The notes beneath the pieces are model-generated. The model was not told the origin of the DNA. It saw only the letters and a program-made list of their open reading frames with translations, and did not search any database. A DNA stretch of 64,000 nt. Source: an uncultured Phycisphaerales bacterium. Its GTDB lineage: Bacteria; Planctomycetota; Phycisphaerae; Sedimentisphaerales; Anaerohalosphaeraceae. How positions within the stretch are numbered: position 1 is the stretch's first letter; each line of letters starts with the position of its first letter. The position numbers were made by a program, and so were the translations under genes. Where the stretch lies: NCBI GenBank assembly GCA_937868095.1, contig CALMLO010000014.1:186001-250000 (forward strand), given 5' to 3'. Shown here one piece after another: positions 27,914-46,371 of this stretch.

Positions 27914-29101
27914 ATGAGTTATTCCTTAGAGTCCATTTTCAAAACCACCTATTGGGCGATCAGCCGGCACTCGGAGGCGCTCAATATTCTTCAGCAAAAG
28001 GCGGCGACCGGACAGGATCTCAGTCGCGTATCGGATGATCCCAGCCATGCCAATCAGATTCTCGGTTTTCAGTCGGATCAGCGGAAGAAGGAAGTTTATT
28101 TGAATACGATGGAAGAAGCCATCAGCGTTCTGGACTTAAGTTCGTCAGTCGTCCAGAGCATTATGAGTGAGATGGCCAACGCCCGCGCTTCGCTGGCTTC
28201 GACCATGTCCGGCACAACCAGTTCGCAGGTGCGCCGCACCCTGGCTACGGAGCTGAATAATGCATTGGAGCAGGTTGTCTCGTTCGCTAATTCGGAACGG
28301 CTCGGCCAGTATTTGTTTGCAGGAGCGAATTCAGAACAGGCCCCCTATCAGGTGGAACGAGACGGAAACGGTCAGATTATCCGGGTGAACTATCAGGGCA
28401 GCCAGCAGGAGCAGAATGTGGAAATCATCCAGGGGATGGAACTGTCGGCTCTGCTGGTGGGAGATCAGCTTTTCCGCGACGATAGCCGTCAGACGCCGGT
28501 ATTTTACGGTTCTACCGGGGTTGCGGCGGGCAGCGGAACCTCCAGTGTGCGGGGAGATGTGTATTTGACTGTAGCCGGTTCGCCGGGGAATTATCAGCTG
28601 TCGATCGATGGGGGAGCCAGCTGGATGACGGTGGATGGGACAGAAACCAATGTCGCCGTCGTGAACTCCCAGACCGGCGAGGTCCTCTATGTAGATGCAA
28701 CCGGCATTCAGCAGACCGGTACCGAGCCCGTCCGGGTTCCCGGAACCTACGATATTTTCAATATTCTTATTTATGCCAGAGATTTGCTGAATAACAATCA
28801 GAATTTGGATGACGAGACGCTGGATGAGCTGATGGCAGCGACGCTGACTTCAATGCAGGAGGTCGAAGAAAAACTGACGCGGTCGTTTCCGGTCATTGGA
28901 GGCCGCATCGAGACGCTCAGCAATCTGAAGGACAGCGTGGAGGATTTGAAGGTCAATTCAGAAGACGAAGTGAGCCGTCTGCTGGATGCGGATATTACCC
29001 AGCTGGCCATTGATTTGGCCAGGCATCAAATGCTTTATGAAATGTCGCTCACGGCGGCTTCTAAGATTTTTTCTACTTCTTTGCTGGATTTTCTTGAGTG
29101 A
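27914..29101 (+). CDS. flgL: Hook-filament junction protein FlgL
   Basis: A 395-residue flagellin-like protein. The N-terminal heptad region (LNILQQKAATGQDLSRVSDD; then QILGFQSDQRKK) and the C-terminal ITQLAIDLARHQMLYEMSLT with ASKIFSTSLLDFL are diagnostic of FlgL. AGAGAGGATAAGCG precedes the ATG. The central region is longer than in enteric FlgL. It ends where the glycosyltransferase cluster begins. Confidence 0.94.
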   Translation: MSYSLESIFKTTYWAISRHSEALNILQQKAATGQDLSRVSDDPSHANQILGFQSDQRKKEVYLNTMEEAISVLDLSSSVVQSIMSEMANARASLASTMSGTTSSQVRRTLATELNNALEQVVSFANSERLGQYLFAGANSEQAPYQVERDGNGQIIRVNYQGSQQEQNVEIIQGMELSALLVGDQLFRDDSRQTPVFYGSTGVAAGSGTSSVRGDVYLTVAGSPGNYQLSIDGGASWMTVDGTETNVAVVNSQTGEVLYVDATGIQQTGTEPVRVPGTYDIFNILIYARDLLNNNQNLDDETLDELMAATLTSMQEVEEKLTRSFPVIGGRIETLSNLKDSVEDLKVNSEDEVSRLLDADITQLAIDLARHQMLYEMSLTAASKIFSTSLLDFLE

Positions 29102-30710: not shown

Positions 30711-32405
30711 ATGTCCGGACCGGATAAAAAAGTATTGGTGCAGGCAGCAGAATTGGCGGAGAAAGGGCAATATGAACAAGCCTTGGGACTCTTGCAAAGT
30801 TATCTGAAGGAACATCCCCAGGATCCGGAGGCCCTCAATGATGCCGGTACAATCCTGTATTGTCTTCATCGAGGGCAGGAGGCCATTGAGTATTTTCAAA
30901 AGGCCCGCTCCTTGAGCCGTGGGGAAATCCTTGCCCAGGTTCTTTTTAATCTTTGCGAGGTCTATCTGGCAGAACGTTGTCCCGAGGAGGCAGTCGGGCT
31001 GCTGGATGAGATGACCTCTCATAACATTCTGAATGTGGACACGCTCAATCGGATTGCCCAATGTTTTGTAGATAAGAATGCATTAGGGCCGGCGATTGAG
31101 ATGCTGCTGTACTCGCTGCGACTGGCCCCCAATCAGGAAATCCTGCGTCCGATGCTCGAGATTATCCGAAGCAGGCGGGCGGCTGTCTTTTTGTATGGGG
31201 AGCAGGAGCGTCGGCTGGAAGGGCTTCAATCCTATCTTCAGGAAAGGTATCGGGTTTATCCCTGTATCGGAGGCAATCTGCCGGCTGTCGGAGAAGGAAT
31301 CTTCCGGCAGGCGGTATCGATTTTTGCCGGCATCAGCAGGGCTCTGCTCGACAGTCGTTATCAGAGAGGGCCTTCGATTCTCTTTTTAGATTATGAAGAT
31401 TTGGGCAATCCTGCAATAGAACAGATTGACTGGACGGGCATCCAGGCACTGTTTGTCCCCTGCACGGCTGTTGCCGAACAGATTCGGCAGTGTTTGGGGA
31501 CGATTCCTTCCGCCGTGCGGGTTGGAACAATCGGACCCAGTGTCGATGCGGAGACGATCGGCTTTTTGGAACGAAAGAAAGGCAAACGCCTGGCGGCTGT
31601 CGGCCCCTGGACGGCTCATCACAATCCGATGTTTCTGCTGCATTGTATGCAGAAACTGCACTATCTCGATGCAGATATGCGGCTCTATTTGGCCGGCGAG
31701 TTTGAGGATGAATCCGTCCGGCAGTATGTCGAATCGATGATTGAAGCGATGGGGCTGGACAATGCGGTCTTTCTCGATGGGGTGCCCCGCAACTGGCAGC
31801 GGTGGCTGAAAGATAAGCACTACATTGTTTCTGCGGCGGTGGATGGACGGGCGATGCCGTCGGTTTTATGCGGAATGGCGGCTGGACTTCGTCCGGTTGT
31901 GCATCAATTCCCGGGGGCGTCGGAGTTTGTGGAGCCCCAGTATCAGTTCCTGCTGGCGGAAGATTTCTGTCGGCAGATTCTGGAAGGGGCCTATGAACCG
32001 CAGCGGTATCGGGAATGGGTGGTCGATCATTATTCACCCGTGCAGATTTATCTGCCGCTGGTGCGGGTTCTTTCGGAAATGGAACATCAACTGATGCTCC
32101 AGTCAGGCGGGCCGCAAGCACAAGAGCAGCCGACTTTTAAGCCGGCTTCAGCGGAGTATTCTCCTGCATGCCGTCCTGTGCCGATTTCTTCGCCGGTTCC
32201 TTCCGTCAAGGCGGCGGCGGAACCGCCCGTACCTTCTTCTTCGACATCAGAATCAGAGATGGAAGAAACAATTGAAGAGTTGGCACGGAAGGCCTTGGAA
32301 GCAGCCCAGCGGCTTTCATCCTTTTCAGGAAAGGTTGGTTCGGCACCGGCGGGGGCGGCGGCGTGCAGCAGCCCGGAAAGGAGTCCGTCCGCCAGCCCTT
32401 TTTAG
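30711..32405 (+). CDS. TPR-glycosyltransferase fusion, paralogue of the preceding gene
   Basis: A 564-residue paralogue of the 29116-30561 product. TPR helices (YEQALGLLQSYLKEHPQDPE) precede a GT-B/GT4-like domain (HNPMFLLHCMQKLHYLDADM; VLCGMAAGLRPVVHQFPGAS). The last ~110 residues are Pro/Ser/Ala-rich and then helical, with no domain recognised. The ATG at 30711 has AGGGAG 8 bases upstream. Its end overlaps the next frame by 43 bases. With its sigma-54 promoter it starts the main glycosylation operon. Confidence 0.82.
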   Translation: MSGPDKKVLVQAAELAEKGQYEQALGLLQSYLKEHPQDPEALNDAGTILYCLHRGQEAIEYFQKARSLSRGEILAQVLFNLCEVYLAERCPEEAVGLLDEMTSHNILNVDTLNRIAQCFVDKNALGPAIEMLLYSLRLAPNQEILRPMLEIIRSRRAAVFLYGEQERRLEGLQSYLQERYRVYPCIGGNLPAVGEGIFRQAVSIFAGISRALLDSRYQRGPSILFLDYEDLGNPAIEQIDWTGIQALFVPCTAVAEQIRQCLGTIPSAVRVGTIGPSVDAETIGFLERKKGKRLAAVGPWTAHHNPMFLLHCMQKLHYLDADMRLYLAGEFEDESVRQYVESMIEAMGLDNAVFLDGVPRNWQRWLKDKHYIVSAAVDGRAMPSVLCGMAAGLRPVVHQFPGASEFVEPQYQFLLAEDFCRQILEGAYEPQRYREWVVDHYSPVQIYLPLVRVLSEMEHQLMLQSGGPQAQEQPTFKPASAEYSPACRPVPISSPVPSVKAAAEPPVPSSSTSESEMEETIEELARKALEAAQRLSSFSGKVGSAPAGAAACSSPERSPSASPF

Positions 32406-33274
32406 CGGAGGAAAATACCGAGCCGGCGGTTGAACCAGCCGAAGACGAGTTGCCCAAGCCCGCCGTCCGTGGCGGAAAACGCACAAGGGTGCTGATTGTT
32501 CCGCCGCCGGGACTTTTGTCGGTCTTGCTGGCCGAGCCGGCCATCCGAGCATTTGGGCAGGCGGAAGCTTCGAGCCGGGAGATTACAATCTGCCATGAGT
32601 ACGCCGATTTATTCATCGGACATCCGGGAGTACGCGGGCTGGCTTATGGAGATGCCGGTGAACTGAACGAATCGTTCGACAAGGTGATTTATCTGCGGGG
32701 TGAGCCGCGGAAAGGAGCCGCTATGGACTGGATGTTTGATGCAGCAGGACAACTGGGGGTGCGGCTGGAGCACCAGACTCCTCAAATCATTCTGAACAGT
32801 TTTGATTTTGTCCGCACGCAGCGGTTTGGGTTGTCAAAGGTGCCTCGTCCCCGTGTGGTACTGGCGCCGCTTTCGGACAGTGCGGAAAGCTGGCTGGCTG
32901 CTCATTCAGTCGAACTGGCTCAACTCTTGAAGCAGAAACTGGGCGCAGGGCTTGTATATGCAGGAGGCGGGATTGGACCGGCAGCGGAAGGAGCCAAAGA
33001 CCTTCGGGGAAAACTGACGGCCCGCGAGATTGCCGCGGTGCTCCAGCAGTGCGATTTGCTCATCAGTGAAGAGGAAGAGACCGCCGCGCTGGCGGCTGCG
33101 ATTCATCTGCCGATTGTATATCTTGGAAAAAATTCATGGGATTGCTGGCCGATGAAGGAAGGAAGCAGCATTATTTCTATTTGTCCGACCGGCCCTGAGG
33201 ATGTGCTGGGGGCCGTCGCACGGCTGAATCCGGCATGGAACGCAGGGCGGACAACAGAGGGAACTGTTCAATAA
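32363..33274 (+). CDS. GT9-like glycosyltransferase (heptosyltransferase fold)
   Basis: About 303 residues, possibly fewer because the start is unsure. The GTG at 32363 lies within the end of the preceding gene and has no ribosome site. The frame is open upstream to 32276 but contains no ATG. Features of ADP-heptose:LPS heptosyltransferase-like proteins are visible (RVLIVPPPGLLSVLLAEPAI; LVYAGGGIGPAAEGAKDLRG; LTAREIAAVLQQCDLLISEE). The substrate site looks weakened: the family's usual GxD-type motif is LLISEEEE here. It is in the -1 frame relative to its neighbour, so translational coupling or frameshifting is conceivable. Confidence 0.68.
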   Translation: MQQPGKESVRQPFLAEENTEPAVEPAEDELPKPAVRGGKRTRVLIVPPPGLLSVLLAEPAIRAFGQAEASSREITICHEYADLFIGHPGVRGLAYGDAGELNESFDKVIYLRGEPRKGAAMDWMFDAAGQLGVRLEHQTPQIILNSFDFVRTQRFGLSKVPRPRVVLAPLSDSAESWLAAHSVELAQLLKQKLGAGLVYAGGGIGPAAEGAKDLRGKLTAREIAAVLQQCDLLISEEEETAALAAAIHLPIVYLGKNSWDCWPMKEGSSIISICPTGPEDVLGAVARLNPAWNAGRTTEGTVQ

Positions 33275-33277
33275 ACA

Positions 33278-34918
33278 ATGACGGCTAAACGTTCACAGCA
33301 TGGTCCGCTGGTGAGTGTTCTTATCAGCACCTACAACCGGCCCCAGTATCTGGAGGAGGCGCTGGAAAGTATTTTTGCGCAGACATGGCCGCATCTGCAG
33401 GTAGTGCTGGTGCGGGATGGAGGGGCAGCCGTGGAGGACGTGGTGCGTCGGTTTTCGGATCGGCGGCTGACCTTTATTAATCGGTCTGAAAATCGCGGGC
33501 TGCCGTATTCCTTTAATGAGGCCCTGGCCCACGCCCGCGGAGAGTATATCTGTTATTTGGGGGATGATGACAAGTTTTATCCTCACCATGTGCAGCGTCT
33601 GGTGGAGGCGATACAAAGCCAGGACCGCTGCGGCGCAGTGTACAGCGACTTGTATAAAGTGCACTGCCGTCTGAAGCCGGATGGACGCCGGATTGTTCTG
33701 GCAAAAAATCTTGAAATCAGCCGCGACTTTGACCGGATGCTGATGCTTCAATTCAATCATGTGCTTCACGTAAGCGTCCTCCATCGAAAGGATTTGCTCG
33801 AACGAGCCGGCGGATACAACGAGAAACTGAATGTTCTGATTGACTGGGATTTAAACCGCAAACTGTGTTTTTATACGGATTTCCTCCACATCCCGGAGAT
33901 TACAGGTGAATATTACGGCCCGGTCGGCGAGTGCGATCGGATTTCCGTTCAGCGCCGCAAGAATGTAAAGGACTATTTGCGGAATGTGCTGACAATCCGC
34001 ACAACCCGGCCTCCCAAACCCTGGCCGTGTATCGAGGATTTGTCCGTTTTGATTTTGGCGGAGCGGCTTGATGAATCGCTGGAGCAGACCCTGCGGGATT
34101 TATGGTCGCATACCTTTTATCCGCAGCAGATTTATGTGCCTCTTTCGAGGGAAGAGGCAGCGGGCTGGAAGCCGGCCGTGCCGAACGTGATTCCGGTTCT
34201 CGTCGAGCCGCAGTCGCCGCTGGAGCAGCGGATAGACCGGATGCTGGCCGTCTGTGAAGGAACGTATGCGGCACTGGTGCCGACAGGCCTGCCAGTAGAG
34301 ATGGACGAGGTGGCCTGGCTGGAGCGTTCTCTCCAGCCGCTGCTGATGTGCCGCCGACCCAATCAGGCCTTCGAACTGGCAGAAGCGACCGACAGCCGCT
34401 GGGGGGCGGTCTTCCGCAAGTCGGAACTGGAGTATGCCCGCCGGCAGTTTAACCATCTGCCGCTTCGCCGCGCCGTGGAGGCAGCCGGCATTTGTATTCG
34501 CAAGCCAGCCTTTGAAGAGTATCCTTTTCAGTTTGATCATTTTCTGGCTGCAGCCGAACAGAAGCAGCAGGAAGGGGACTGGGTGTATGCGGCCAAGGTT
34601 TATGAATACTTGGCTGAGCATTTCGGCAATGAACTCTGGATGCGGACCCGACAGGCCCACGCCCTGGAACAGGCAGGCCGTTTGGCAGAGGCAAGGGAGA
34701 CGCTCGAGCAGGTTCAGGCAGTTCGCCCGACGGTTTCATCGCTCTTGATTGCCGCTCGAATCTGTCAGAAACAAAAAAACTATCGCCAGGCGATCGATTT
34801 TTATGAACAGGCCCGAATGGTCCTTGAGACCAGGGACCGGTGCAGGAGAATTGTTTCTCCGGCCCGACGCAAAACATCGTGGAAGCCGGCTTCTGATGAA
34901 CCGGCGATGGTATCGTAG
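33278..34918 (+). CDS. GT2 glycosyltransferase with C-terminal TPR region
   Basis: A 546-residue protein. Residues about 9-230 are a GT2 (GT-A) domain: LVSVLISTYNRPQYLEEALE, a donor-binding LVRDGG segment, and the metal-binding CYLGDDDKFYPHHV (a DDD in place of DxD). Residues about 240-400 look like a second, degenerate GT-A domain (LSVLILAERLDESLEQTLRD) without a DxD. Residues about 420-520 are TPR-like. It begins 3 bases after the previous stop. It is likely part of the same glycosylation system. Confidence 0.82.
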   Translation: MTAKRSQHGPLVSVLISTYNRPQYLEEALESIFAQTWPHLQVVLVRDGGAAVEDVVRRFSDRRLTFINRSENRGLPYSFNEALAHARGEYICYLGDDDKFYPHHVQRLVEAIQSQDRCGAVYSDLYKVHCRLKPDGRRIVLAKNLEISRDFDRMLMLQFNHVLHVSVLHRKDLLERAGGYNEKLNVLIDWDLNRKLCFYTDFLHIPEITGEYYGPVGECDRISVQRRKNVKDYLRNVLTIRTTRPPKPWPCIEDLSVLILAERLDESLEQTLRDLWSHTFYPQQIYVPLSREEAAGWKPAVPNVIPVLVEPQSPLEQRIDRMLAVCEGTYAALVPTGLPVEMDEVAWLERSLQPLLMCRRPNQAFELAEATDSRWGAVFRKSELEYARRQFNHLPLRRAVEAAGICIRKPAFEEYPFQFDHFLAAAEQKQQEGDWVYAAKVYEYLAEHFGNELWMRTRQAHALEQAGRLAEARETLEQVQAVRPTVSSLLIAARICQKQKNYRQAIDFYEQARMVLETRDRCRRIVSPARRKTSWKPASDEPAMVS

Positions 34919-34929
34919 GAGAGCAGTGT

Positions 34930-35559
34930 ATGGATTTCGCAGGCGCATTGCAGAATCCGGATCAGGGATGGATGCAGCGGTATGATGTGCTCAAAGAGCT
35001 GGGAGACTGCTACGCCTCGGTGGGTGAGTATGACAATGCCCGCCGGTGCTATGAGCAGGCGTCGTGGCTGGAGCCGGACGAAGCCGGGCCGTATGTGGGC
35101 ACCGGCGTCATTGAACTTCAGCAGGGCCGGCTGGAAGATGCGGAGCTGGCCTTTCGGGTGGCGCTGCGGCTGGACGGCTGCAGCAGCCGCGCCTATGCGG
35201 GCCTGGCGATGATTGCACAGCAGTGCGGCCGTCTTCAGCAGGCCTTTGATTATTATCTGAAAAGTCTGGAACTGGACAGCAATCATCTGACGGCACTGCT
35301 GGGACTTTTTCAAGTCTCCTGCCAGATGGGCACGTTCAGCCAGGTGATTCACTATCTCCAGATATATCTGCAAGTCCATCCGGCCGATACGGCCGTGATG
35401 TTTTGTCTGGCGGCACTCTATGCCAAAGAAGGCCGGATTCAGCGGGCGAAAGACCTCCTGAAGGATATTCTGGCGCTGGAGCCCGGCCATGAAGATGCCC
35501 GCCAGCTGCTCGAAGAAATGGAACATAAAGCCATGCAGAAAGGTGGGTATTCTTTATGA
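34930..35559 (+). CDS. TPR-repeat protein
   Basis: A 209-residue protein made almost entirely of about six tetratricopeptide repeats (GDCYASVGEYDNARRCYEQA; IAQQCGRLQQAFDYYLKSLE; YAKEGRIQRAKDLLKDILAL). It has no signal peptide. The ATG at 34930 follows AGGAGAGCAGTGT. TPR proteins of this kind scaffold protein complexes, and here it may organise the transferases. It overlaps the next gene by 4 bases. Confidence 0.85.
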   Translation: MDFAGALQNPDQGWMQRYDVLKELGDCYASVGEYDNARRCYEQASWLEPDEAGPYVGTGVIELQQGRLEDAELAFRVALRLDGCSSRAYAGLAMIAQQCGRLQQAFDYYLKSLELDSNHLTALLGLFQVSCQMGTFSQVIHYLQIYLQVHPADTAVMFCLAALYAKEGRIQRAKDLLKDILALEPGHEDARQLLEEMEHKAMQKGGYSL

Positions 35560-35903
35560 GCAAACCAACCTCCCCTTTGTCTGCGAAAGCAGACGAGAAG
35601 GAAAACGAAGCCCGGCAGCTGCTCGGTTATTTAGCGGACCTGCTGGAGCGGCAGCTGGAGAAACTGCGCAAGTATGACTTGGACGGCGCGGTTCGCCTGG
35701 CAGAGGAATCGCAGCGCGTTTCCGAGCAGGTTGCCCGAGAGGGTCTGCTGGAACGGCCCTGCTATGCTTCCCAGAAGCAGAAAATTCAGGGACTCTATCA
35801 GGATGTATGTCTGATAATTGCCTCCCAGCGACAGGAAGTAGCCGAAAAATTGCGTCAGATTCGCGAAGGAATCCGGACGCTGGCCAGATATGCGGAGCAA
35901 TAA
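35556..35903 (+). CDS. FlgN/FliT-like small helical protein, putative chaperone
   Basis: A 115-residue, wholly alpha-helical, charged protein (ARQLLGYLADLLERQLEKLR; CLIIASQRQEVAEKLRQIRE). Size and helical-hairpin character resemble FlgN/FliT export chaperones. It is distinct from the flgN at 25256. An ATGA overlap couples it to the TPR gene. It could be the chaperone for FliD, encoded downstream, or for flagellin, but no specific motif proves this. Confidence 0.6.
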   Translation: MSKPTSPLSAKADEKENEARQLLGYLADLLERQLEKLRKYDLDGAVRLAEESQRVSEQVAREGLLERPCYASQKQKIQGLYQDVCLIIASQRQEVAEKLRQIREGIRTLARYAEQ

Positions 35904-35947: not shown

Positions 35948-38900
35948 ATGATTTTACTCCCTTTAACACCCACGACCCCTGTTCTTCGCAAGAAGGCAGC
36001 TTACGAAGAAATTTCCCCGGAGAAGGTGCTGTCAATTCTTGGTTCCCCTGCTGTGCAGGCCGGCGTTCTTGAGGCATGGCGTTTTGTTGAGACAGATGTC
36101 CCTATTCAGGAGCAGATCGCTGTATTGCGTAAGCATATTGCCGACAACCAGCCGTTTTGGAATCTCTATGTAGGGCTGGCGTATGCGGCCCAGGTACTTC
36201 AGCCGAGAACGTATCTGGAAATTGGTGTACGGACCGGCTGCTCTATGGTTCAGGTCCTGGCTCACAGCTGTCTGCAGGGGGTAGTGGGGGTGGACTTATG
36301 GACAGGAAATTATGCGGACCTGCCCAATACTCTTACCTATGCGAAAAAACAGATTGAAAACTTCTGCCGAAAAACAGGCCGAACCGTTCCCGTGCATCTG
36401 ATTCAGGGAGATAGTCATCAGATTCTTAAACAGCTTATTCAGGCACAATGCCGATTCGATTTGATTACAGTAGATGGAGACCATTTCGAAAAGGGGGCCT
36501 GGGAGGATTTGATTGATGCACGAGCGTTGCTGGCGGACCGGGGAGCAATTGTGTTTGATGATATTGTGCACCCCGCTTTTCCGTTCTTGATGGATGTGGC
36601 AAAGCGGTTTGTCCGATCTTTTCCGGAGTTTCAGATTTTGATGAATTCCACTCAGGATAACGGCTGCGCCATCCTTCTGAAAGGAATAGAAGCAGCGGAC
36701 TTTCTCCGGCTTGAAAGCGATCAGCAGGAGCCGAAGAACCATCTGAAGGTCGCAGAAGAGTATGTCAAAAACGGAATGATGATTCAGGAGAGTTCTGCGT
36801 TTGCAGAGGCGATTGGTCAGGTTATTCGGGAGTATCGGCCGAAAAAGATTCTGGAGACCGGTACCTATCTGGGGCAGGGCACAACGGCCGTCATCGCCGA
36901 GGCAATGAAGCAGAACGGCATTGACGGCACCTTTTTTACCATCGAGGTCAATCCTCGTTATCACGCACAGGCCAAAGCATATCTGGAGAGCAAGGGCTAT
37001 CCGGTTCAGGCGCTTTGCGGTTTGTCGATTCCGAGGCGGCTGCTGCCCAGCCGTGAACAAATTCAGCAGACAACCACGGCCGTGCAGGACGAAACCCTTT
37101 TCGTTGACCATCCGGAGCCGGTTCGGGCCCAGCGCTACTATCAGGAAACGGATTTTCCCGATGTGCCGGATGATTTGCTCGGCAAGTGCCTGGCAGACTT
37201 TGACGGCAGGCCGGATTTGGTTCTTTTGGACAGCGCCGGTCATCTGGGCTGGATTGAGTTTCAGTACCTGCTCGAGCGGCTCAAAGGCCCCTGTATCCTT
37301 GCGCTGGATGATATTGACCATATCAAGCACCATCGCAGTTTTCAGCACATGCAGAAGGACAGCCGGTTTGAGATTTTAATTTCTTCCAATGAAAAGTTCG
37401 GCTTCTGCATCGCCCGCTTTGATCCGCAGCGCCGCAGCTGCCCCCAGCCGCATCCGCTTGAACCGAAGCATATTTTGTGGCTGCGTCCGGATGCGATCGG
37501 CGATGGGATTCTTTCCTCGGCGATGCTGCCGAGAATCCGCCGGCGTTTTCCTTCCGCTCGTCTGACAGTTTTTGTTCAGCAGGCCGTCGCCCCCCTCTAT
37601 GAGACCTGTCCGTTTGTGGATGAAATCCTCTGTTTTCAGCCGGAGGAAACAAATGACCCGGTGCAGTTTCTTCGCCGCTGGTCGGAGCGGATTTGGACAC
37701 TGGGGGCGGATTGTCTGCTTCATTCGGTTTATTCCCGGCAGTTTCTGATGGATGGGCTGGTCTATGCCTCCGGCATCCCCGAGCGAATTGGAATGGAAGG
37801 AAACTGCTGTAATATTCATCCTGAGAAGAAGGCCAAATCAGACGGCTGGTACACATGGCTGATTCCCAGCGAGGGGGACTGGAAACCGGAATTGGAGCGG
37901 CATCGGGATTTTCTGAGGGGCTTGGGGTGCGATGACCAGCCGCTCAAGCCGATCGTTTGGCTGACCGCAGAGGATGAGGCCTATGCTCACAAATGGCTGG
38001 AAGAAAACCAAATAAATCCAGAGCAGCTGGTTGTTTTATTTGCCGGCGCACGCGTGTCTCTTCGGCACTATGAGGGCTATGGAAAAGCGCTGGAAGAGAC
38101 AGCCCTCAAGCATCGGCTGGCAGTGGCGGCATTAGGAGCAAAAGAGGATTTTGAAATCAATCAGAGAAATTTGGATTGGCTCAAGGAACGAGGGATTCGC
38201 ACCTTCAATCTGTGCGGCCGGCTCAGTCTGCGTCAAAGTGCTGCAATCCTGAAACAGTGCCGCCTGGCTGTCGGAGCCGAGACGGGGCTGGCCCATCTGG
38301 CGGCGGCGGTAGATGTGCCCCATGTGGTAGTCATCGGCGGCGGTCATTTTGGACGGTTTATGCCCTACAGCCCGAAAACGACTTTGGCCGCTCTTCCGTT
38401 GGACTGTTATGGATGCAACTGGCTGTGCCGGTATGAGCAGGAGCGAAATTACTGTATTCAGGACCTTCAGCCGGCTGTGCTCTCAGAGGCCGTTCGGGAA
38501 ACATTCGAAAAATCCTCTTCTAAACCGAGAATCTTTATTCAGGACCAGCCCTTGTATAAAAAGCCGGAATCCGGCCCCTCCTGGAAACTCTTCTCGAAAT
38601 TTATTGACACCAGCACGGTTGAAATCTGCCGTGTATCTCATCCCCAAAAGGATTCCCAAACGCACACGCCATCGCTGCCCGCAGCACCCGCTGTGCTTCG
38701 AAGCAAAGAGCACCTGCCGGCTGGTGCTTTTCCAAAGATTACCGTCGTAACACCCTCGTATAATCAGGCGCCGTATTTAGAGGAATGTATTCAGTCGGTT
38801 TTGAGCCATGGCTATCCGAATCTGGAATATATCATTATGGACGGCGGCAGCACGGATGGCTCAGTGGAGATTATTAAAAAATATGAAAAGTATCTGACGT

Positions 38901-41290
38901 ACTGGCAAAGCAAGCCGGACGGCGGCCAGTATGCCGCCGTCGAAGAGGGATTCAGACGTTCGACAGGAGAAATCCTCACCTGGATTAATTCGGATGATAT
39001 GCTGCTTCCGGGCGCTTTGCGGAAAGTGGCGGCAATCTTTTTAAATCGGCCCGATGTTCAGTGGATTACTGGAAAAGTTTGTCTTCTCGAAGCAGATGGG
39101 ACGATTCATTATGCCGCTCTTGCTCCGGTTTTTTGGAACCGGGCAAGATACCTTGCGAAAGACTATAAATATATTCAGCAGGAAGGTTCTTTTTGGCGAA
39201 GGCAGCTGTGGGAGAAGGCCGGAGCTTTCCTATGGAAAGAATCCCGCTTAGCGGGCGATTTAGAACTGTGGAATCGTTTTTTCCGTCACGCGGACTTATA
39301 CACAGCCGAAGCTTTCTTAGGGGCTTTTCGCATGCAGCCGAATCGAAAGACCGCTTCGCTTATCGAAAAGTATAATCAGGAAGCAGAGGCCGTCCTCGAG
39401 GCGGAATTGCAGCAGTACGCAAGCCAGCCGGTTCACAGCCGCCCGCCCCTTCGAAAGCCTCCGCAGCCTATTACAGAACTGGAAATCAGCCGTTATCTGG
39501 AAATCTTCCCAGACCAGCAGCCGTCCCAGCCGGTTCAGATTCCTTCCTCCGGCAATTTTCTGGTAAGTGCTATTGTTTCCACTTATAACGCGGAAGCGTT
39601 TATTCGCAGCTGTTTGCAGAATTTGGTGGAGCAGACCCTCTTTCAGAAGGGGCAAATGGAGATTCTTGTGGTGGACAGCGGTTCCCAGCAGAATGAAGGG
39701 CGGATTGTCCGCCAGTTTCAGTCCTGCTATCCCAATATCCGGTATTTGCGAACCCCTCAGCGGGAGCCGATTTATGCGGCCTGGAACCGGGCGATTCGGC
39801 TGGCCTCAGGCAAATATCTCACCAGTGCCAATACCGATGACCGCCACCGCCCGGATGCCCTCGAGATTCTCGCAGAAACTCTCGAGAAGAATCCGAAGAT
39901 TGCTCTGGTTTACAGCGACCAGGTGATTGCTCCAATTCCTCTGGAGCGTTTTTCTGCGCGTTGGGGCCAGCTGATTCCCCGGCCTGATTACAGCTATGAG
40001 CGGCTTTTGTTCGGCTGCTGTGTCGGCTCTCAGCCGATGTGGCGAAAGTCGCTTCACGAGGAGTTCGGGCTTTTTGATGAAACGCTCACCGTAGCCGGCG
40101 ACTGGGATTTCTGGCTGCGGATTGCGTCACGCTATCCTTTCCAGCGAGTGCCGGAGTTTCTCGGTGTGTATTATAATAATCCGGCCAGCGCAGAACATGG
40201 CCGGCCGATTCATTCCCTCTATGAGCGGTATCTCGTCGGCAAACGATACGGCAATCCGCATATTTCGATCATTCCTCCGTGTGTCAGGAAAGACAACCCC
40301 CTCGTGTCGGTGATTCTGCCTGTTTACAATGGAGCCGATTATATTGCAGAAGCCATCGAGAGCGTTCTGATTCAGAATTATCCGCATTTGGAGCTGCTGA
40401 TTATCAACGACGGCTCGGAAGACAATACAGAGGAAATTGTCAAAAGATTTTCTGATGAGCGCATCCGGTATTTTCTGCAGAACCATGGGGGGCCGTCCGC
40501 GGCCCGCAATGAAGGGATCCGCCGTTCCAAGGGACAATTTCTGGTGATGCTTGATCATGATGATTATCTGACGGCGGATCATATCGGACAAATGCTGACG
40601 GCTTATGACCGCTATCCGGAAGCCGACCTGATTTATTGTGATACACTTCTGCTCAATGAAGAAGGCAAAGCCCTGCGTGTTCATCAGCGGAAGGAGTTTC
40701 AGAATCCGAATTATCTGATTCAGGAGATTTTTCAGGCCGGTTTTCCCATCGTTCCTTTTCGGACCTGCATTCGGCGTCGTGTTTTTGAGAAGATTGGAGA
40801 GTATGATCCTTCACTGTGGGTGGCCGAAGATTACGATATGTGGCGCCGATTCCTGAAACAGGGCTTGATTTTCCGGCATTGGCCCAAATCGTATTATTGC
40901 CGCAGAATACGCCGGAATGCCCATTCCAGAATCATCACGCCGGAAAAGGCCCGGATGCATTTCCAAGTGCTTCAAAGGTATCTGGAGACTTTCGAGCCCC
41001 AGCAGCTGTTTCCAGACGTGCGATGGGACTCTTATACGGGTTTCCAAAAAGAGTTTTTGTTTCATTTGAGGGTGTGCGGAGTCTTTGTCGCACTGGGCGA
41101 ACAGTATAAAGAAACAAAAATGTCTGCATGTCTGGTCCAATTGGCCTGTGAACAGGCCGTCCGGCATCTGGAAATCTGCCGATCGATTTATCCGGAGCAG
41201 CCGGCGATTGTCTCGCTGGAGCAGCGATGTCAGGCCCTGTTCACGGATTCAGAATCCTCGAATGTTCTGCAGGAGAGTGTGTCAGGATAA
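35948..41290 (+). CDS. Giant multi-domain methyltransferase-glycosyltransferase protein
   Basis: A 1780-residue protein without signal peptide or membrane helix. The ATG at 35948 was chosen because the frame upstream overlaps the previous gene and has no domain. Modules in order: class I methyltransferase-like (about 60-250; TYLEIGVRTGCSMVQVL, LITVDGDHFEKG); a second one (about 265-490; ILETGTYLGQGTTAVIAEAM); a GT9-like domain (about 505-850; WLRPDAIGDGILSSAMLPRI, LAVGAETGLAHLAAAVDVPH); then three GT2 domains at about 928-1150 (ITVVTPSYNQAPYLEECIQS, INSDDM), 1203-1420 (VSAIVSTYNAEAFIRSCLQN, NTDD) and 1450-1690 (VSVILPVYNGADYIAEAIES, LDHDDY). All three GT2s keep plausible metal-binding acidic pairs. 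It lies between flgL and fliD, so glycan assembly and methylation on flagellin is the favoured role. Confidence 0.85.
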   Translation: MILLPLTPTTPVLRKKAAYEEISPEKVLSILGSPAVQAGVLEAWRFVETDVPIQEQIAVLRKHIADNQPFWNLYVGLAYAAQVLQPRTYLEIGVRTGCSMVQVLAHSCLQGVVGVDLWTGNYADLPNTLTYAKKQIENFCRKTGRTVPVHLIQGDSHQILKQLIQAQCRFDLITVDGDHFEKGAWEDLIDARALLADRGAIVFDDIVHPAFPFLMDVAKRFVRSFPEFQILMNSTQDNGCAILLKGIEAADFLRLESDQQEPKNHLKVAEEYVKNGMMIQESSAFAEAIGQVIREYRPKKILETGTYLGQGTTAVIAEAMKQNGIDGTFFTIEVNPRYHAQAKAYLESKGYPVQALCGLSIPRRLLPSREQIQQTTTAVQDETLFVDHPEPVRAQRYYQETDFPDVPDDLLGKCLADFDGRPDLVLLDSAGHLGWIEFQYLLERLKGPCILALDDIDHIKHHRSFQHMQKDSRFEILISSNEKFGFCIARFDPQRRSCPQPHPLEPKHILWLRPDAIGDGILSSAMLPRIRRRFPSARLTVFVQQAVAPLYETCPFVDEILCFQPEETNDPVQFLRRWSERIWTLGADCLLHSVYSRQFLMDGLVYASGIPERIGMEGNCCNIHPEKKAKSDGWYTWLIPSEGDWKPELERHRDFLRGLGCDDQPLKPIVWLTAEDEAYAHKWLEENQINPEQLVVLFAGARVSLRHYEGYGKALEETALKHRLAVAALGAKEDFEINQRNLDWLKERGIRTFNLCGRLSLRQSAAILKQCRLAVGAETGLAHLAAAVDVPHVVVIGGGHFGRFMPYSPKTTLAALPLDCYGCNWLCRYEQERNYCIQDLQPAVLSEAVRETFEKSSSKPRIFIQDQPLYKKPESGPSWKLFSKFIDTSTVEICRVSHPQKDSQTHTPSLPAAPAVLRSKEHLPAGAFPKITVVTPSYNQAPYLEECIQSVLSHGYPNLEYIIMDGGSTDGSVEIIKKYEKYLTYWQSKPDGGQYAAVEEGFRRSTGEILTWINSDDMLLPGALRKVAAIFLNRPDVQWITGKVCLLEADGTIHYAALAPVFWNRARYLAKDYKYIQQEGSFWRRQLWEKAGAFLWKESRLAGDLELWNRFFRHADLYTAEAFLGAFRMQPNRKTASLIEKYNQEAEAVLEAELQQYASQPVHSRPPLRKPPQPITELEISRYLEIFPDQQPSQPVQIPSSGNFLVSAIVSTYNAEAFIRSCLQNLVEQTLFQKGQMEILVVDSGSQQNEGRIVRQFQSCYPNIRYLRTPQREPIYAAWNRAIRLASGKYLTSANTDDRHRPDALEILAETLEKNPKIALVYSDQVIAPIPLERFSARWGQLIPRPDYSYERLLFGCCVGSQPMWRKSLHEEFGLFDETLTVAGDWDFWLRIASRYPFQRVPEFLGVYYNNPASAEHGRPIHSLYERYLVGKRYGNPHISIIPPCVRKDNPLVSVILPVYNGADYIAEAIESVLIQNYPHLELLIINDGSEDNTEEIVKRFSDERIRYFLQNHGGPSAARNEGIRRSKGQFLVMLDHDDYLTADHIGQMLTAYDRYPEADLIYCDTLLLNEEGKALRVHQRKEFQNPNYLIQEIFQAGFPIVPFRTCIRRRVFEKIGEYDPSLWVAEDYDMWRRFLKQGLIFRHWPKSYYCRRIRRNAHSRIITPEKARMHFQVLQRYLETFEPQQLFPDVRWDSYTGFQKEFLFHLRVCGVFVALGEQYKETKMSACLVQLACEQAVRHLEICRSIYPEQPAIVSLEQRCQALFTDSESSNVLQESVSG

Positions 41291-41353: not shown

Positions 41354-44182
41354 ATGAGTGATTTTTTCCAACGGGAAACGGTTGCGGTTTTGGCAACCAG
41401 TCTGACGCCCCGGAATATCGAGAATCAGCAGCAGGCAGTCCAGTCCTGGCGGAAAGCGGGGTTTGCCGTGCTGAGTATGAATCATCCGGAAGAGATGGCG
41501 GTCCTTCGTCCGCAGTTTCCGCAGGTTCGTTTCATCCCGGCCTCTCGAAACGGCCGTGAGTTTTTCGGCAAGCCGCTGATTTATATTGATGATCTTTTCG
41601 GAGCGCTGAAAGAAACCCAGTTTGAGATTGTCGGGATCATTAATTCGGATATTCATCTTTCGCTGGAACCGGTTCATCTGGACGCGATGGTTCGACAGAC
41701 GCAGGATGCCGTTATTTGCGTTAACCGGATGAATGTCAAGCGGCTGGGCGATGAGAACGCCGCAATTTTTATGAACGGTTTCGATGCTTTCTTTTTCCGC
41801 CGGGCCATGCTGGACCGGATTCCCCCTTCCCGTTTTTGCCTGGGGGTTGCCTGGTGGGATTACTATGTGCCGATCGTGTGCGTTTTAAACCGGATCCCGC
41901 TGGCTCGTTTCCAGGACCCGGTCGCCTATCATATCTTGCATCCGCTCAACTGGAACGAGAATCAATGGAACTATGCGGCCAAGTACTTCTTTGAGCGGCT
42001 GCTGGAACTGTGCGGACAGCACGAAGGATGCCATCCGTTCTGCAACCTGGGGTATAAACTCCGCGAGGCCTGGAAACTGTTTCATTTGATTCTCCTGAAT
42101 GACTGTCCGATATCTCTCATTCGCAAGAGTTATGTTTATGCCGAATTCATTCTGGGCATCATATACGGTCAAATGAAGGTGCTGGAGCCCCTTTGTCCGG
42201 ACCGCATGGAAAAGAATCCCTTTGCCCTGCCCGATTCAAGCAGGATCACACATGCTCTGGTAAGTCCATCGATGACACTGGTGGCGGTTGATAAGTCCGC
42301 CGGGCCGATGGTATCAGCCATTGTGTCCACGTATCAGTCAGAGGCCTTTATCGGCGGCTGCCTGCAGGATCTGGTCGAGCAGACGCTGTATCGGAAGGGG
42401 CTGCTGGAAATCATTGTGGTGGACAGCGGCTCGCCGCAGAATGAGGGGGCCATTGTCCGGGAATTCCAGAGCCGTTATCCGAATATCCGGTATATCCGGA
42501 CGCAGCAGCGTGAGACCATTTACGCAGCGTGGAACCGGGGGATTCGTGAAGCACGCGGTAAATATATCACCAATGCCAACACAGATGACCGCCACGCTCC
42601 CCTGATGCTCGAGATGCTGGCGGCGGCGCTGGAGGAAAGGCCGGATAAGGCGGCGATTTATTCGCATTTTTACATCACGGAGATTCCCAACCAAACCTGG
42701 CAAACCAAGACGCCTGTGCGGCTGGCCGACTGGCATCCGCCGTTTTCCCGAGAGGCGCTGCTGAAAGGCAATTTCATGGGACCGCAGCCGATGTGGCGTC
42801 GCTCGCTGCACGAGGAGTACGGCTATTTTGACCCCACGTTTCAGGTCTCCGGCGACTGGGAGTTCTTCCTGCGGGTTTCGCAGACTCACGAGTTTATCCG
42901 ATGCAGAGCCATCCTCGGCCTGTATTATTATAATCCGAAAAGTCTGGAACGCTCCGCCGGAACCCGGGAACAAGAAGACCGGTTTATTCGCGAACTTTAT
43001 ACAAAGAATCAGAATCGGATTATCCGCAGGCCCTTCCGTCCGGAAATGGAAAGTGCCTTTCCTGATTCGTCCATTCGGCACCAGCCGGTGCAGCAGGCCG
43101 CTCCTCGGCCCCTCATCAGCGTTTGCATGGTGACTTACAACGCCCAAGACAGCATTGTTCAGGCGATTCAGTCTGTTCTTTCTCAAACATATCAGCATTT
43201 TGAACTGCTGATTGTGGATGACGGCAGCACAGACCAGACCGGCCGGCTTGCTCAGTCTTTTTCGGATGCCAGAGTCCGCTATATCCGTCAGGAGCATAAG
43301 AACTTCGCAGCCGGAATGAATCGGGCTATTCAGCAGGCCCAGGGGGAGTTTATTCTCGGCGTAGATTCGGACGACTTTATTGCTCCGGATTATCTGGAAA
43401 AGATGGCGGCCTTTGCTCTGCAATACCCGGAGTACGATTATTATTATCCCGAAAAACTTACCCTCGTGGATGAAGCCGGCAATTACACCGGAACCGACTG
43501 GGAATACAATGACCTTCGGGACAGCAAATTGCTGCCGGCAATCCTGTTTGCAAAAGGAGCATCCCCGATTCCCAATTCGGGTTCGCTGAAGCGGCGTCAG
43601 ATGTTCGAACGAACCGGTCTCTTCCGTGAAATTGATAATGTGGAGGATTTTGATTTTCTGGCCCGCAACGCTCTTCAGATTCGCTTCCGGAAAGTTCAGG
43701 GCTCCTCCTGCTATTATTATCGTCGAAGTTCATCCACCAACAGCAGACGCTTTGAGCAGCGAAATCGCCTTACCGCGGCATGTCTGGATGAAATGATTCG
43801 ACATTATTCGCCGGCGCAGTTATGTCCGTTTTTGGCGGATGTATCAGAGGCGAGCGAACGAGAAAGAAGATTTTTAGACTATGTAATTTCTATATTTGAA
43901 AAACATGCCCAGGCATACCACGAAAGGGCGGGAGAAATCTTTCAGGAATATGCCGACAAATACAGACAAAAAAAGTCTGAAATAGGGGTTCAGCAAACCT
44001 TAAAGTTGGCCTTGAATTGCCTGGAGCAAAAGAACCCGATAAAAGCAGCCCAAATCTGTCGAGAAACATTGTCCAATAAAACCTTTATTCTGGATGGGAA
44101 AAGCAGACAGACTATCCAGACGCTCCTTTCCGAGATAGAATCCGTTCAGAAGGAGGAGGGTGAGCTTTTGCCTAAGTGTTGA
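41354..44182 (+). CDS. Three-module glycosyltransferase protein
   Basis: A 942-residue protein. Residues 1-300 form a GT-A-like domain not assigned to a family (VAVLATSLTPRNIENQQQAV, IVGIINSDIHLS, AWWDYYVPIVCVLNRIPLAR). A GT2 domain follows at about 318-560 (VSAIVSTYQSEAFIGGCLQD, NTDDRHAP) and a second at about 585-810 (LISVCMVTYNAQDSIVQAIQ, VDSDDFIAPDY). The C-terminal ~100 residues are helical. The first GT2 is closely similar to the second GT2 of the giant protein upstream, for example EQTL(F/Y), VVDSGS, QNEG and YAAWNR in register. It starts 63 bases after the giant gene. Confidence 0.85.
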   Translation: MSDFFQRETVAVLATSLTPRNIENQQQAVQSWRKAGFAVLSMNHPEEMAVLRPQFPQVRFIPASRNGREFFGKPLIYIDDLFGALKETQFEIVGIINSDIHLSLEPVHLDAMVRQTQDAVICVNRMNVKRLGDENAAIFMNGFDAFFFRRAMLDRIPPSRFCLGVAWWDYYVPIVCVLNRIPLARFQDPVAYHILHPLNWNENQWNYAAKYFFERLLELCGQHEGCHPFCNLGYKLREAWKLFHLILLNDCPISLIRKSYVYAEFILGIIYGQMKVLEPLCPDRMEKNPFALPDSSRITHALVSPSMTLVAVDKSAGPMVSAIVSTYQSEAFIGGCLQDLVEQTLYRKGLLEIIVVDSGSPQNEGAIVREFQSRYPNIRYIRTQQRETIYAAWNRGIREARGKYITNANTDDRHAPLMLEMLAAALEERPDKAAIYSHFYITEIPNQTWQTKTPVRLADWHPPFSREALLKGNFMGPQPMWRRSLHEEYGYFDPTFQVSGDWEFFLRVSQTHEFIRCRAILGLYYYNPKSLERSAGTREQEDRFIRELYTKNQNRIIRRPFRPEMESAFPDSSIRHQPVQQAAPRPLISVCMVTYNAQDSIVQAIQSVLSQTYQHFELLIVDDGSTDQTGRLAQSFSDARVRYIRQEHKNFAAGMNRAIQQAQGEFILGVDSDDFIAPDYLEKMAAFALQYPEYDYYYPEKLTLVDEAGNYTGTDWEYNDLRDSKLLPAILFAKGASPIPNSGSLKRRQMFERTGLFREIDNVEDFDFLARNALQIRFRKVQGSSCYYYRRSSSTNSRRFEQRNRLTAACLDEMIRHYSPAQLCPFLADVSEASERERRFLDYVISIFEKHAQAYHERAGEIFQEYADKYRQKKSEIGVQQTLKLALNCLEQKNPIKAAQICRETLSNKTFILDGKSRQTIQTLLSEIESVQKEEGELLPKC

Positions 44183-44289: not shown

Positions 44290-46371
44290 ATGTCTTCAAT
44301 ACAATTGACCGGCCTTTCGACAGGAATTGATACAGCTTCAATTGTTGAGCAGCTTATGCAGGTGGAACGGCGCCGCCTGACGAATTATGAGTCGAGTTTG
44401 GAAACCCTCAAGGAGAAAAGAACGGCGGTTTCCGAACTGAACACCAAGATGAATGCTTTGCGTTCCGCACTGTCGGCCTTGTCCGATTCGAGCCAGCTGC
44501 GCTCCTATCAAACCAAAAGCAGCAATGAAGATGTGCTGACGGCTGCGGCCAGCGGAAGCGCCTTTGAGGGAACCCACAATGTTAAGATTCGCCAGCTGGC
44601 AACAGCCAACCGCTGGGTCCATGATGGATTTAATTATGTGTCCCAGTATGTCGGCGAAGGCAATCTTATTCTGTCCTACAACAATCAGGAATTTGTTGTT
44701 CAGACGACAGCCACGACAACCCTCCAGGAATTGGTGGATTTGATTAACAACGATCCGGATAACCCGGGCATTACGGCCAGCATCCTCGACTATCAGTCGG
44801 GCTCCGGAAGATACCATCTGGTTCTCAGCGGTCGGGAGAGCGGTTCCGACTACCAGATTTCCATCAATACAAGCAACACGGACGTTCATACTTCGACGGA
44901 ACTGAAGACGGCCGACGGCAGCGATGCTGTCCTGAGCACCCGACTGTCTCAACTCGAGGGCAGCTCCGGTTTTGGAACGGGCTCAACGACCGATCAGATT
45001 CGGATTCAGGGATCGCTTGGGGACGGCACACCGGTGGATTATTCCTTTGAGGTAAACCCGTACACGACCGTCGAAGAACTGATGTCCGAAATTGAAACGG
45101 CCTTTGGAAATACCGTGAAAGTCCGTCTGGAAGATGGAGCCCTGATTGTTACGGATCGAACCAGCGGGGCCAGCGATTTATCTGTTTCCCTCTCCCTGAT
45201 ACCTGGCGAGGGTTCTTCGGCGGTATGGACGGCGCCGGTCTTTACCGAAACGACGGCGGGCGGTTCGATTAACTCCAATCTGAGCATGCTGGCACCCTCC
45301 GCGTTTTTGGAAACGCAGGCCGCTCAGGATGCGATGATTAAGATTGACGGCTATCCTGCGGGGGAAGATACCGATGAAAATACATGGATTCGGCGAAGCT
45401 CCAACACCATCGATGATGTGATAGCGGGTGTAACCTTGAACCTTCACAGTGCAACCGGCAACGATACCGATGGATACGATTCGGTGTCTGTTACACTCAA
45501 TCGCGATACCGCCACCCTGCAGGATAAACTTCAGGCGATGGTCGATGCTTATAATTCAGTAGTGTCTTATTTAAAGGAAAAAACCACATACGATGAAGAG
45601 GAAAAGAAGACGGGCATTCTTTCTTCCGAATACAGTCTGACCAGTATTACGAGCATCATTCGTTCTCCGCTGCTTTTCAATGCGTCCGGATTTACTTCTC
45701 GAGACACGTTTGTCAAGCCGGCGGATATTGGGCTTGAGTTTGAAGCGGACGGTACCCTGACCTTGGACAGCGCAGCATTTGAGGAAGCGCTGGTGGATAA
45801 TTATCAAGCAGTGCTTTCTTTGATTGGTGCCCAGAAGAGCGGCTACAGCAATTCGAACACCGTTAAGTTCTATCAGGCCAGCAGCTATACACAGGGCGGC
45901 CAGTATGATGTGCGGGTAACGATTGAGGACGGCCGGGTAACCTCCGCGCAAATCAAACTCAACACGGAAAGCTGGTCGGCGGCACGCGAGATGACCATAG
46001 ACGGAAACACACTCTACGGCAGTACAGAGACCGGCAGCAGCGGTTATCCCGTTAACCCGGAGTATAGTCTGGTTTTGAGTGTGGATACAGGCCAGTCCGG
46101 TACTTATGAGGCCTCTGTAAGCGTCAAGCAGGGCTTTGCCGGAAGTCTGTATGATACGGTCGATAAGATGCTGAAAACCGGAACCGGCCAGGTTCCGCTC
46201 GTGCAGGACGGCATCCAGAACCGCATTGATAATATGGAAAGCCGAATCAGCGATGAGGAAGATCGTTTGGAGCGGGTGGAGACGCGTCTGAAAAACCAGT
46301 ATGCTCGTTTGGAAAAGAATCTGCAGCTCATTCAGCAGCAGATGGCTGGCTTAAGTATGCTGAGCAGTTAG
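44290..46371 (+). CDS. fliD: Flagellar filament cap protein FliD
   Basis: A 693-residue FliD. The N-terminus is characteristic (SSIQLTGLSTGIDTASIVEQ, LMQVERRRL), with the FliD_N region KTKSSNEDVLTAAASG-like (QTKSSNEDVLTAAASGSAFE) and the C-terminal coiled coil (RIDNMESRISDEEDRLERVE, RLKNQYARLEKNLQ). It caps the growing filament and is longer than the ~470 residues of enteric FliD because of extra surface domains. AAGGGAG lies upstream of the ATG at 44290. Its stop codon overlaps that of the convergent gene. Confidence 0.95.
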   Translation: MSSIQLTGLSTGIDTASIVEQLMQVERRRLTNYESSLETLKEKRTAVSELNTKMNALRSALSALSDSSQLRSYQTKSSNEDVLTAAASGSAFEGTHNVKIRQLATANRWVHDGFNYVSQYVGEGNLILSYNNQEFVVQTTATTTLQELVDLINNDPDNPGITASILDYQSGSGRYHLVLSGRESGSDYQISINTSNTDVHTSTELKTADGSDAVLSTRLSQLEGSSGFGTGSTTDQIRIQGSLGDGTPVDYSFEVNPYTTVEELMSEIETAFGNTVKVRLEDGALIVTDRTSGASDLSVSLSLIPGEGSSAVWTAPVFTETTAGGSINSNLSMLAPSAFLETQAAQDAMIKIDGYPAGEDTDENTWIRRSSNTIDDVIAGVTLNLHSATGNDTDGYDSVSVTLNRDTATLQDKLQAMVDAYNSVVSYLKEKTTYDEEEKKTGILSSEYSLTSITSIIRSPLLFNASGFTSRDTFVKPADIGLEFEADGTLTLDSAAFEEALVDNYQAVLSLIGAQKSGYSNSNTVKFYQASSYTQGGQYDVRVTIEDGRVTSAQIKLNTESWSAAREMTIDGNTLYGSTETGSSGYPVNPEYSLVLSVDTGQSGTYEASVSVKQGFAGSLYDTVDKMLKTGTGQVPLVQDGIQNRIDNMESRISDEEDRLERVETRLKNQYARLEKNLQLIQQQMAGLSMLSS

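Follow-up and report, generated by a model that had tools for sequence, protein, structure and literature searches.

A six-module predicted glycosyltransferase and methyltransferase protein in a flagellar gene cluster of the Planctomycetota, and the turnover of modules among its giant relatives

Introduction

What is the role of a single open reading frame of 1780 codons, with six predicted transferase modules, that lies inside a flagellar gene cluster? Protein glycans are usually seen as the products of separate enzymes, without a readable code, and a sequence-only reading of this locus had instead suggested a single-chain assembly line that builds a methylated oligosaccharide on flagellin or cap proteins. 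The frame, here called P0001, lies in a window of 64,000 nucleotides, the whole stretch of DNA that was analyzed, from an uncultured Phycisphaerales bacterium with a draft genome (G000) of 3.04 Mb in 69 contigs. Flagellin O-glycosylation is a cytoplasmic and sequential process, in which FlmG binds flagellin by its tetratricopeptide repeats (TPRs) and transfers the sugar by a GT-B domain (PMC7591256).

Results

A glycosyltransferase island in the flagellar cluster

The flagellar genes of the window are flgD, flgE, a flgG-like gene, flgA, the gene of a rod-binding protein, flgN, flgK, and flgL, followed by an island and then by fliD, an FlhA-like gene, and flhB. The glycosyltransferase (GT) island consists of glycosyltransferase genes inside the flagellar cluster that are bordered by flgL and fliD (Table 1). 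That P0001 lies between flgL and fliD, as had been stated from the sequence alone, is therefore true of the borders, but the gene is not alone there, since six other ORFs separate it from flgL and a multi-module protein of 942 residues is encoded downstream. The first 300 residues of the latter (41354-42277, + strand) form a module without a match in Pfam or PHROGs that is also found as a stand-alone gene, as an N-terminal domain, and within giants; judged by its sequence, it could be a divergent GT-A domain.

Table 1. Features of the glycosyltransferase island and modules of P0001 (positions in the window).
Feature	Position	Strand	Evidence
flgL, left island border	27914..29101	+	TIGR02550, 158 bits, cut-off 127
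TPR + GT4-type glycosyltransferase, 487 aa	29098..30561	+	Pfam
TPR + GT4-type glycosyltransferase, 566 aa	30705..32405	+	Pfam: TPR over cut-off, GT slightly under
303-aa protein, weak GT9 similarity	32363..33274	+	local search only, 16-21 bits; no Pfam match
GT2 + TPR protein, 546 aa, kept as separate gene	33278..34918	+	Pfam; ~630-690 bit matches in many loci
TPR-only protein, 209 aa, present in gap even at giant-less loci	34930..35559	+	Pfam
P0001, giant modular protein, 1780 aa, MT-MT-GT9-GT2-GT2-GT2	35948..41290	+	open frame; Pfam; structure models; purifying selection
MTA, residues ~31-248: class I methyltransferase, Methyltransf_24, SafC/COMT fold	36038..36691	+	Pfam, fold, motifs
MTB, residues ~276-496: second COMT-like methyltransferase fold	36773..37435	+	sub-cut-off Pfam, fold, motifs
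GT9 module, residues ~507-858: heptosyltransferase-family GT-B	37466..38521	+	Pfam, fold, Asp519
GT2a, residues ~918-1175	38699..39472	+	Pfam GT2; GT-A model; NSDD motif conserved
GT2b, residues ~1195-1430	39530..40237	+	Pfam GT2; GT-A model; NTDD motif conserved
GT2c, residues ~1446-1680, in nearly constant C-terminal GT2 clade	40283..40987	+	Pfam GT2; K4CP match; position-specific clade
Helical C-terminal tail of P0001, residues 1681-1780	40988..41287	+	DSSP on model; lowest conservation in P0001, 48% identity
Second modular protein, 942 aa: 300-aa module, then GT2b-like + GT2c-like modules	41354..44182	+	Pfam; module types as in P0001
fliD, right island border	44290..46371	+	PF07195 and PF02465

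Three observations at the loci count against a role of the giant in making a flagellar glycan. From flgL to fliD, no ORF was recognized as a sugar-nucleotide synthesis gene; such genes are a frequent hallmark of flagellin glycosylation islands but not a universal one. The two flagellin genes lie away from the island (275 aa, L128 7149-7976, - strand; 272 aa, L129 4041-4859, + strand), and in both proteins the middle variable region is very short, almost absent. Moreover, no glycosyltransferases were recognized beside the two flagellin genes when the ORF lists were inspected by eye.

Frame, start, and modules of P0001

The frame of P0001 is open throughout and the protein is soluble by prediction. 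The longest version of the frame begins at an ATG at 35807 and would give a protein of 1827 aa, but we prefer the start at 35948 because the N-terminal residues from there (MILLPLTPTTPVLRKKA) are similar to those at the beginning of the closest orthologue, that of genome G002 (MIVLPSNPRFCVLRKKA), which also backs the length of 1780 residues given earlier. The absence of membrane helices is borne out as well, as the 19-residue hydropathy windows peak at 1.45, a value at which none is expected. Five of the six modules are clear in Pfam and all six are seen in structure prediction, so the two methyltransferase-like, one GT9, and three GT2 modules read from the sequence stand, and the domain searches and structure prediction that had been named as checks found both SAM-binding-type and GT folds. 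The AlphaFold2 models of residues 1-905 and 902-1780 have mean pLDDT values of 79.5 and 84 and pTM values of 0.48 and 0.59, so that the placement of the domains relative to each other is unreliable. Orthologues conserve the SAM-type, GD, and DXD-type motifs, all of which are intact in P0001, and the modules evolve under purifying selection, with dN/dS of ~0.10-0.27 per module against the G002 orthologue (GT2a gave no dS). P0001 itself has no Pfam match to a TPR domain, and the TPR plus GT-B arrangement of FlmG is not seen in it.

The MTA module matches Methyltransf_24 over residues 90-206 (68.3 bits, cut-off 26.3), its predicted fold resembles SafC (5lhm, Z ~17.6), and its LEIG, VDGD, and FDD motifs are kept in orthologues; a sequence search of the PDB gave no match for it at E 0.01. 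The MTB region (259-500), searched alone, remains under the same Pfam cut-off at 22.0 bits, and its predicted fold matches COMT with Z ~17 and an rmsd of 2.1-2.3 Å over 160-165 aligned residues (Z ~17.4 for rat COMT, 2zth), with the motifs ETGT, LLDS, and LDDI kept in orthologues. The GT9 module matches PF01075 at residues 639-822 (58.5 bits, cut-off 22), and its model gives Z 33 to 3tov and Z 28.9 to WaaF (1psw), with Asp519 aligned to the catalytic Asp of the WaaF GD motif and conserved in 8/8 alignment rows. PF00535 (GT2) matches three stretches of P0001 (282.7 bits, cut-off 23.3), whose DXD-type motifs NSDD, NTDD, and DHDD are conserved or near-conserved in orthologues. By sequence, GT2c matches the chondroitin synthase K4CP at E 1.9e-26. 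In Foldseek the best PDB matches of the modeled GT2 half are K4CP and PmHS2, together with other GT-A enzymes; it is single GT-A domains that match, with a TM-score on the target of 0.33-0.38, and the domain arrangement superposes poorly.

Giants beside fliD in related genomes

Across the order, FliD was found in 92/125 genomes, upstream stretches were taken where contigs allowed, and 78 fliD loci were read. With a giant defined as an ORF of at least 1000 aa with GT-type matches that lies no more than three genes upstream of fliD, 47 of the 78 loci have one, of which one (L074) rests on a weak match only. The largest giant is 4014 aa long, and P0001 is mid-sized within the order. At least 22 fliD loci show flgL close to fliD without a giant, and because these relatives are flagellated the giant is dispensable for having a flagellum. 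In 20 genomes without detected FliD, the relatives of the modules are nearly all short single-domain ORFs. These observations support a strong co-occurrence of the giant with flagella. Outside the class, in genome G194, two giants, one of them 2723 aa long, lie downstream of flgK, flgL, and the gene of a TPR-like protein and are oriented as these are, with fliD not adjacent.

A relevant open frame of at least 880 aa is present in three of the 20 FliD-negative genomes (G068, G085, and G082), and each was considered as a carrier of a giant. G068 and G085 were rejected as non-flagellated carriers: FlhB is present, the assemblies are fragmented, and the giant-type ORF runs to the contig end, so fliD is probably missing from the assembly. 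G082, which has neither FliD nor FlhB, was rejected as the locus is a different one. Likewise, a match in Citrobacter was set aside, since the 444-aa protein looks like an ordinary PgaC-type membrane GT2 that is related to the GT2 domains only by chance.

Modules change while their order is kept

The orthologue in G002 is a frame of 2620 aa in which the six P0001 modules recur, 65-71% identical and in unchanged order. Compared with the MTA-MTB-GT9-GT2a-GT2b-GT2c arrangement plus 942-aa protein of G000, it has two insertions at domain borders, an N-terminal MT-GT2 and an MT between GT9 and GT2a, and its 300-aa module is a separate gene. Such shifts in content occur at domain borders even inside one genus. 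In the G001 giant (L046 11314-14388, - strand) the N-terminal half is replaced by an NKWYS (capsule synthesis) module and a weak GT4-like region; we read the NKWYS module as sulfotransferase-like, and by its sequence it could make the flagellar glycan of that species a sulfated one. TPR and FkbM methyltransferases take the place of the N-terminal half in G003 and G004, and an extra TylF-like methyltransferase is present in the giant of G005, a gene that is split across two contig ends and whose join is inferred. Some module pairs (F-J, G-H, and L-B) form a single protein in one genome but are encoded separately in another, and module L stands alone in G002, is N-terminal in a smaller G000 protein, and is an internal part of the G001 and G005 giants. 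Within the genus, shared modules are ~50-77% identical and the core flagellar proteins beside them 67-88%, so the shared modules look vertically inherited.

For an order test, modules were clustered at ≥42% identity over ≥110 residues and labels found in at least three loci were used. Only 20 of the 673 ordered pairs (3.0%) are discordant, against a mean of 33.6% and a minimum of 28.7% in 1000 within-locus shuffles, which leave shared ancestry in place and hence show that order is retained and not why. When restricted to unique, non-nested strings, the values are 3.3% discordant and 33.0% shuffled. The fliD-proximal GT2 module is nearly one clade in the 47 loci, with 5 changes versus 40 expected by shuffling, and the upstream modules vary. 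A B-A pair of GT2 modules is also conserved.

Discussion

A hypothetical mechanism for the giant

We now propose that P0001 is probably a cytosolic modular enzyme that builds an O-methylated glycan on flagellin or on hook and cap proteins, a reading founded on its sequence, on the predicted models, and on analogy with known enzymes. By analogy with FlmG, the neighboring TPR glycosyltransferases would bind the acceptor in the cytosol and attach the first sugar to it prior to export. The giant and its 942-aa partner would add further sugars from presumed nucleotide donors, in a linkage that is likewise presumed. The portion of the chain that is widely shared would come from the GT2b-GT2c pair and the species-specific portion from GT2a, GT9, and the other upstream modules, while the two methyltransferase modules would O-methylate sugars of the chain, presumably rather than the protein. 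The modules would presumably act in sequence. The decorated flagellin or, if that is the acceptor, FlgK, FlgL, FliD, or the hook protein would then be exported via the flagellar secretion system, and species would alter the glycan by gaining or losing entire modules while the order stays fixed. There is a precedent for such a mode of action in the viral protein A064R, which carries two GT domains plus a methyltransferase and in vitro carries out three steps one after the other (PMC9614988).

A stricter form of this proposal is a collinear assembly line, in which the order of the modules dictates the order of the sugars and methyl groups, as with the modules of polyketide synthases, and species diversify their flagellar glycan by inserting or deleting whole modules at a set place in this order, beside a constant terminal one. 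Because order is conserved while content changes, the comparison of sequences lends indirect support to an ordered, module-by-module logic of the giants. The fixed order could, however, come from common descent with losses and not from functional collinearity, and we regard the collinear line as unlikely. A related alternative, that the modules are co-expressed independent enzymes whose fusion has no functional meaning and whose order reflects ancestry and deletions only, has a somewhat better chance, though we still lean against it. The pairs that are fused or split depending on the genome, and module L in its three settings, are as this alternative would have them, whereas the fact that order has been kept repeatedly despite insertions and gene splits, together with growth to 4014 aa, suggests that linkage is selected.

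Two further alternatives concern the product. Paired GT2 modules might alternate, as in K4CP or heparosan synthase, to make a repeating polymer for a polysaccharide sheath or capsule; both of the enzymes whose structures the GT2 half matches best are two-GT polymerases, and the conserved B-A pair points the same way. That match is limited to single GT-A domains with low TM-scores and lacks agreement in arrangement, however, and a defined, non-repeating chain is a better fit to a set of GT modules that exceeds two and is mixed in type, to the GT9 and the methyltransferases, and to the growing module numbers in relatives, which makes a polymer improbable. Marginally less probable still is a surface-polysaccharide enzyme (for LPS, capsule, or S-layer) that is in the flagellar cluster by chance. 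LPS and capsule loci typically encode GT9 and GT2 enzymes, and the flagellin genes are not adjacent to the giant, but the position on the fliD side is the same in 47 loci, in another class (G194) giants follow flgL, and genomes that have no flagellar genes lack the giant: among the 20 FliD-negative genomes, giant-type ORFs occur only where FlhB is present (G068 and G085). That P0001 is an artefact of a frameshift, misassembly, or chimeric ORF would be a concern with any draft genome of many contigs, yet the six modules recur in the G002 orthologue without any change of order, and this, with the low dN/dS, refutes a frameshift or chimera and makes the chance of an artefact negligible.

Relation to known systems

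The proposed flagellar glycan enzyme shares features with several systems. In Pseudomonas, glycosylation genes also lie in the flagellar cluster, with fgt1/fgt2 upstream of fliC, a viosamine island with the large transferase VioT of 1173 aa, and methylated flagellin glycans (PMC3927599); there the transfer steps are assigned to separate genes and no six-module array is reported, and in the P0001 genome the flagellins are elsewhere. FlmG of Caulobacter is soluble, cytoplasmic, and modular, and its TPR plus GT arrangement is that of the island proteins at 29098 and 30705, but it has 596 aa and one GT-B domain, unlike P0001 with its six predicted catalytic modules and no TPR match (PMC7591256). 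A comparable layout is that of A064R of chlorovirus PBCV-1 (GT-GT-MT, 638 aa), a single chain in which two GTs and a methyltransferase act in sequence on a protein-linked glycan, as shown in vitro, and A111/114R has three GTs (PMC9614988). A064R is likened here by domain layout and not by sequence; it is a three-domain protein of an algal virus that acts on a capsid glycan, whereas the P0001 family has six or more domains and a flagellar locus. In enterobacterial flagellin islands, GT and methyltransferase are fused and island content is strongly variable, but the GT is of the GT41 type at the fliC/fliA locus, and multi-GT arrays are not described in the part of that account available to us (PMC4875605). 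K4CP and PmHS2, to which the GT2 half has its best matches in fold and sequence, have tandem GT-A (GT2) domains in one chain, but their two GTs alternate to make a polymer and they have no GT9 or methyltransferase modules.

It was thus known before that glycosylation genes occur in the flgL-fliC-fliD region, with a transferase of 1173 aa (PMC3927599), and that GT and methyltransferase can be fused (PMC4875605), and the earlier statement that P0001 far exceeds known flagellin glycosyltransferases holds insofar as it is larger and a mosaic, and has to be tempered by VioT and by these fusions. Literature searches on giant or multidomain flagellar glycosyltransferases and on flagellin glycosylation in Planctomycetes gave nothing directly on point; the literature searched had no report of such a size, of the number of modules, of their ordered turnover, or of their occurrence in Planctomycetota. 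Chains of up to 4014 residues, in which modules are gained and lost without a change of order, provide a natural series for comparing glycan structure with module order. The family may also be a source of multi-step soluble glycosylation enzymes, and it points to extensive flagellar glycosylation in Planctomycetota.

Additional observations

The longest fused ORFs upstream of fliD are those of L104 (G062, 4014 aa), L107 (G104, 3706 aa), and L097 (G060, 3559 aa), long parts of which are unannotated. By eye, an NSD motif is seen in the 300-aa module of the 942-aa protein, and a FliS-like ORF follows the gene of the 275-aa flagellin (L128). Immediately 5' of the giant, a 115-aa ORF (35556-35903, + strand), probably helical and without a Pfam match, is possibly a small chaperone. 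The FlhA-like protein of the cluster (46368-47930, - strand, 520 aa) corresponds to no more than the N-terminal part of FHIPEP (a match of 31.5 bits) and may be a second, truncated FlhA-like protein; a full FlhA is encoded elsewhere in the source genome (C32:101610-103556). In other members of the genus, ORFs homologous to the 520-aa protein, of similar size and with 48-64% identity, adjoin fliD and flhB.
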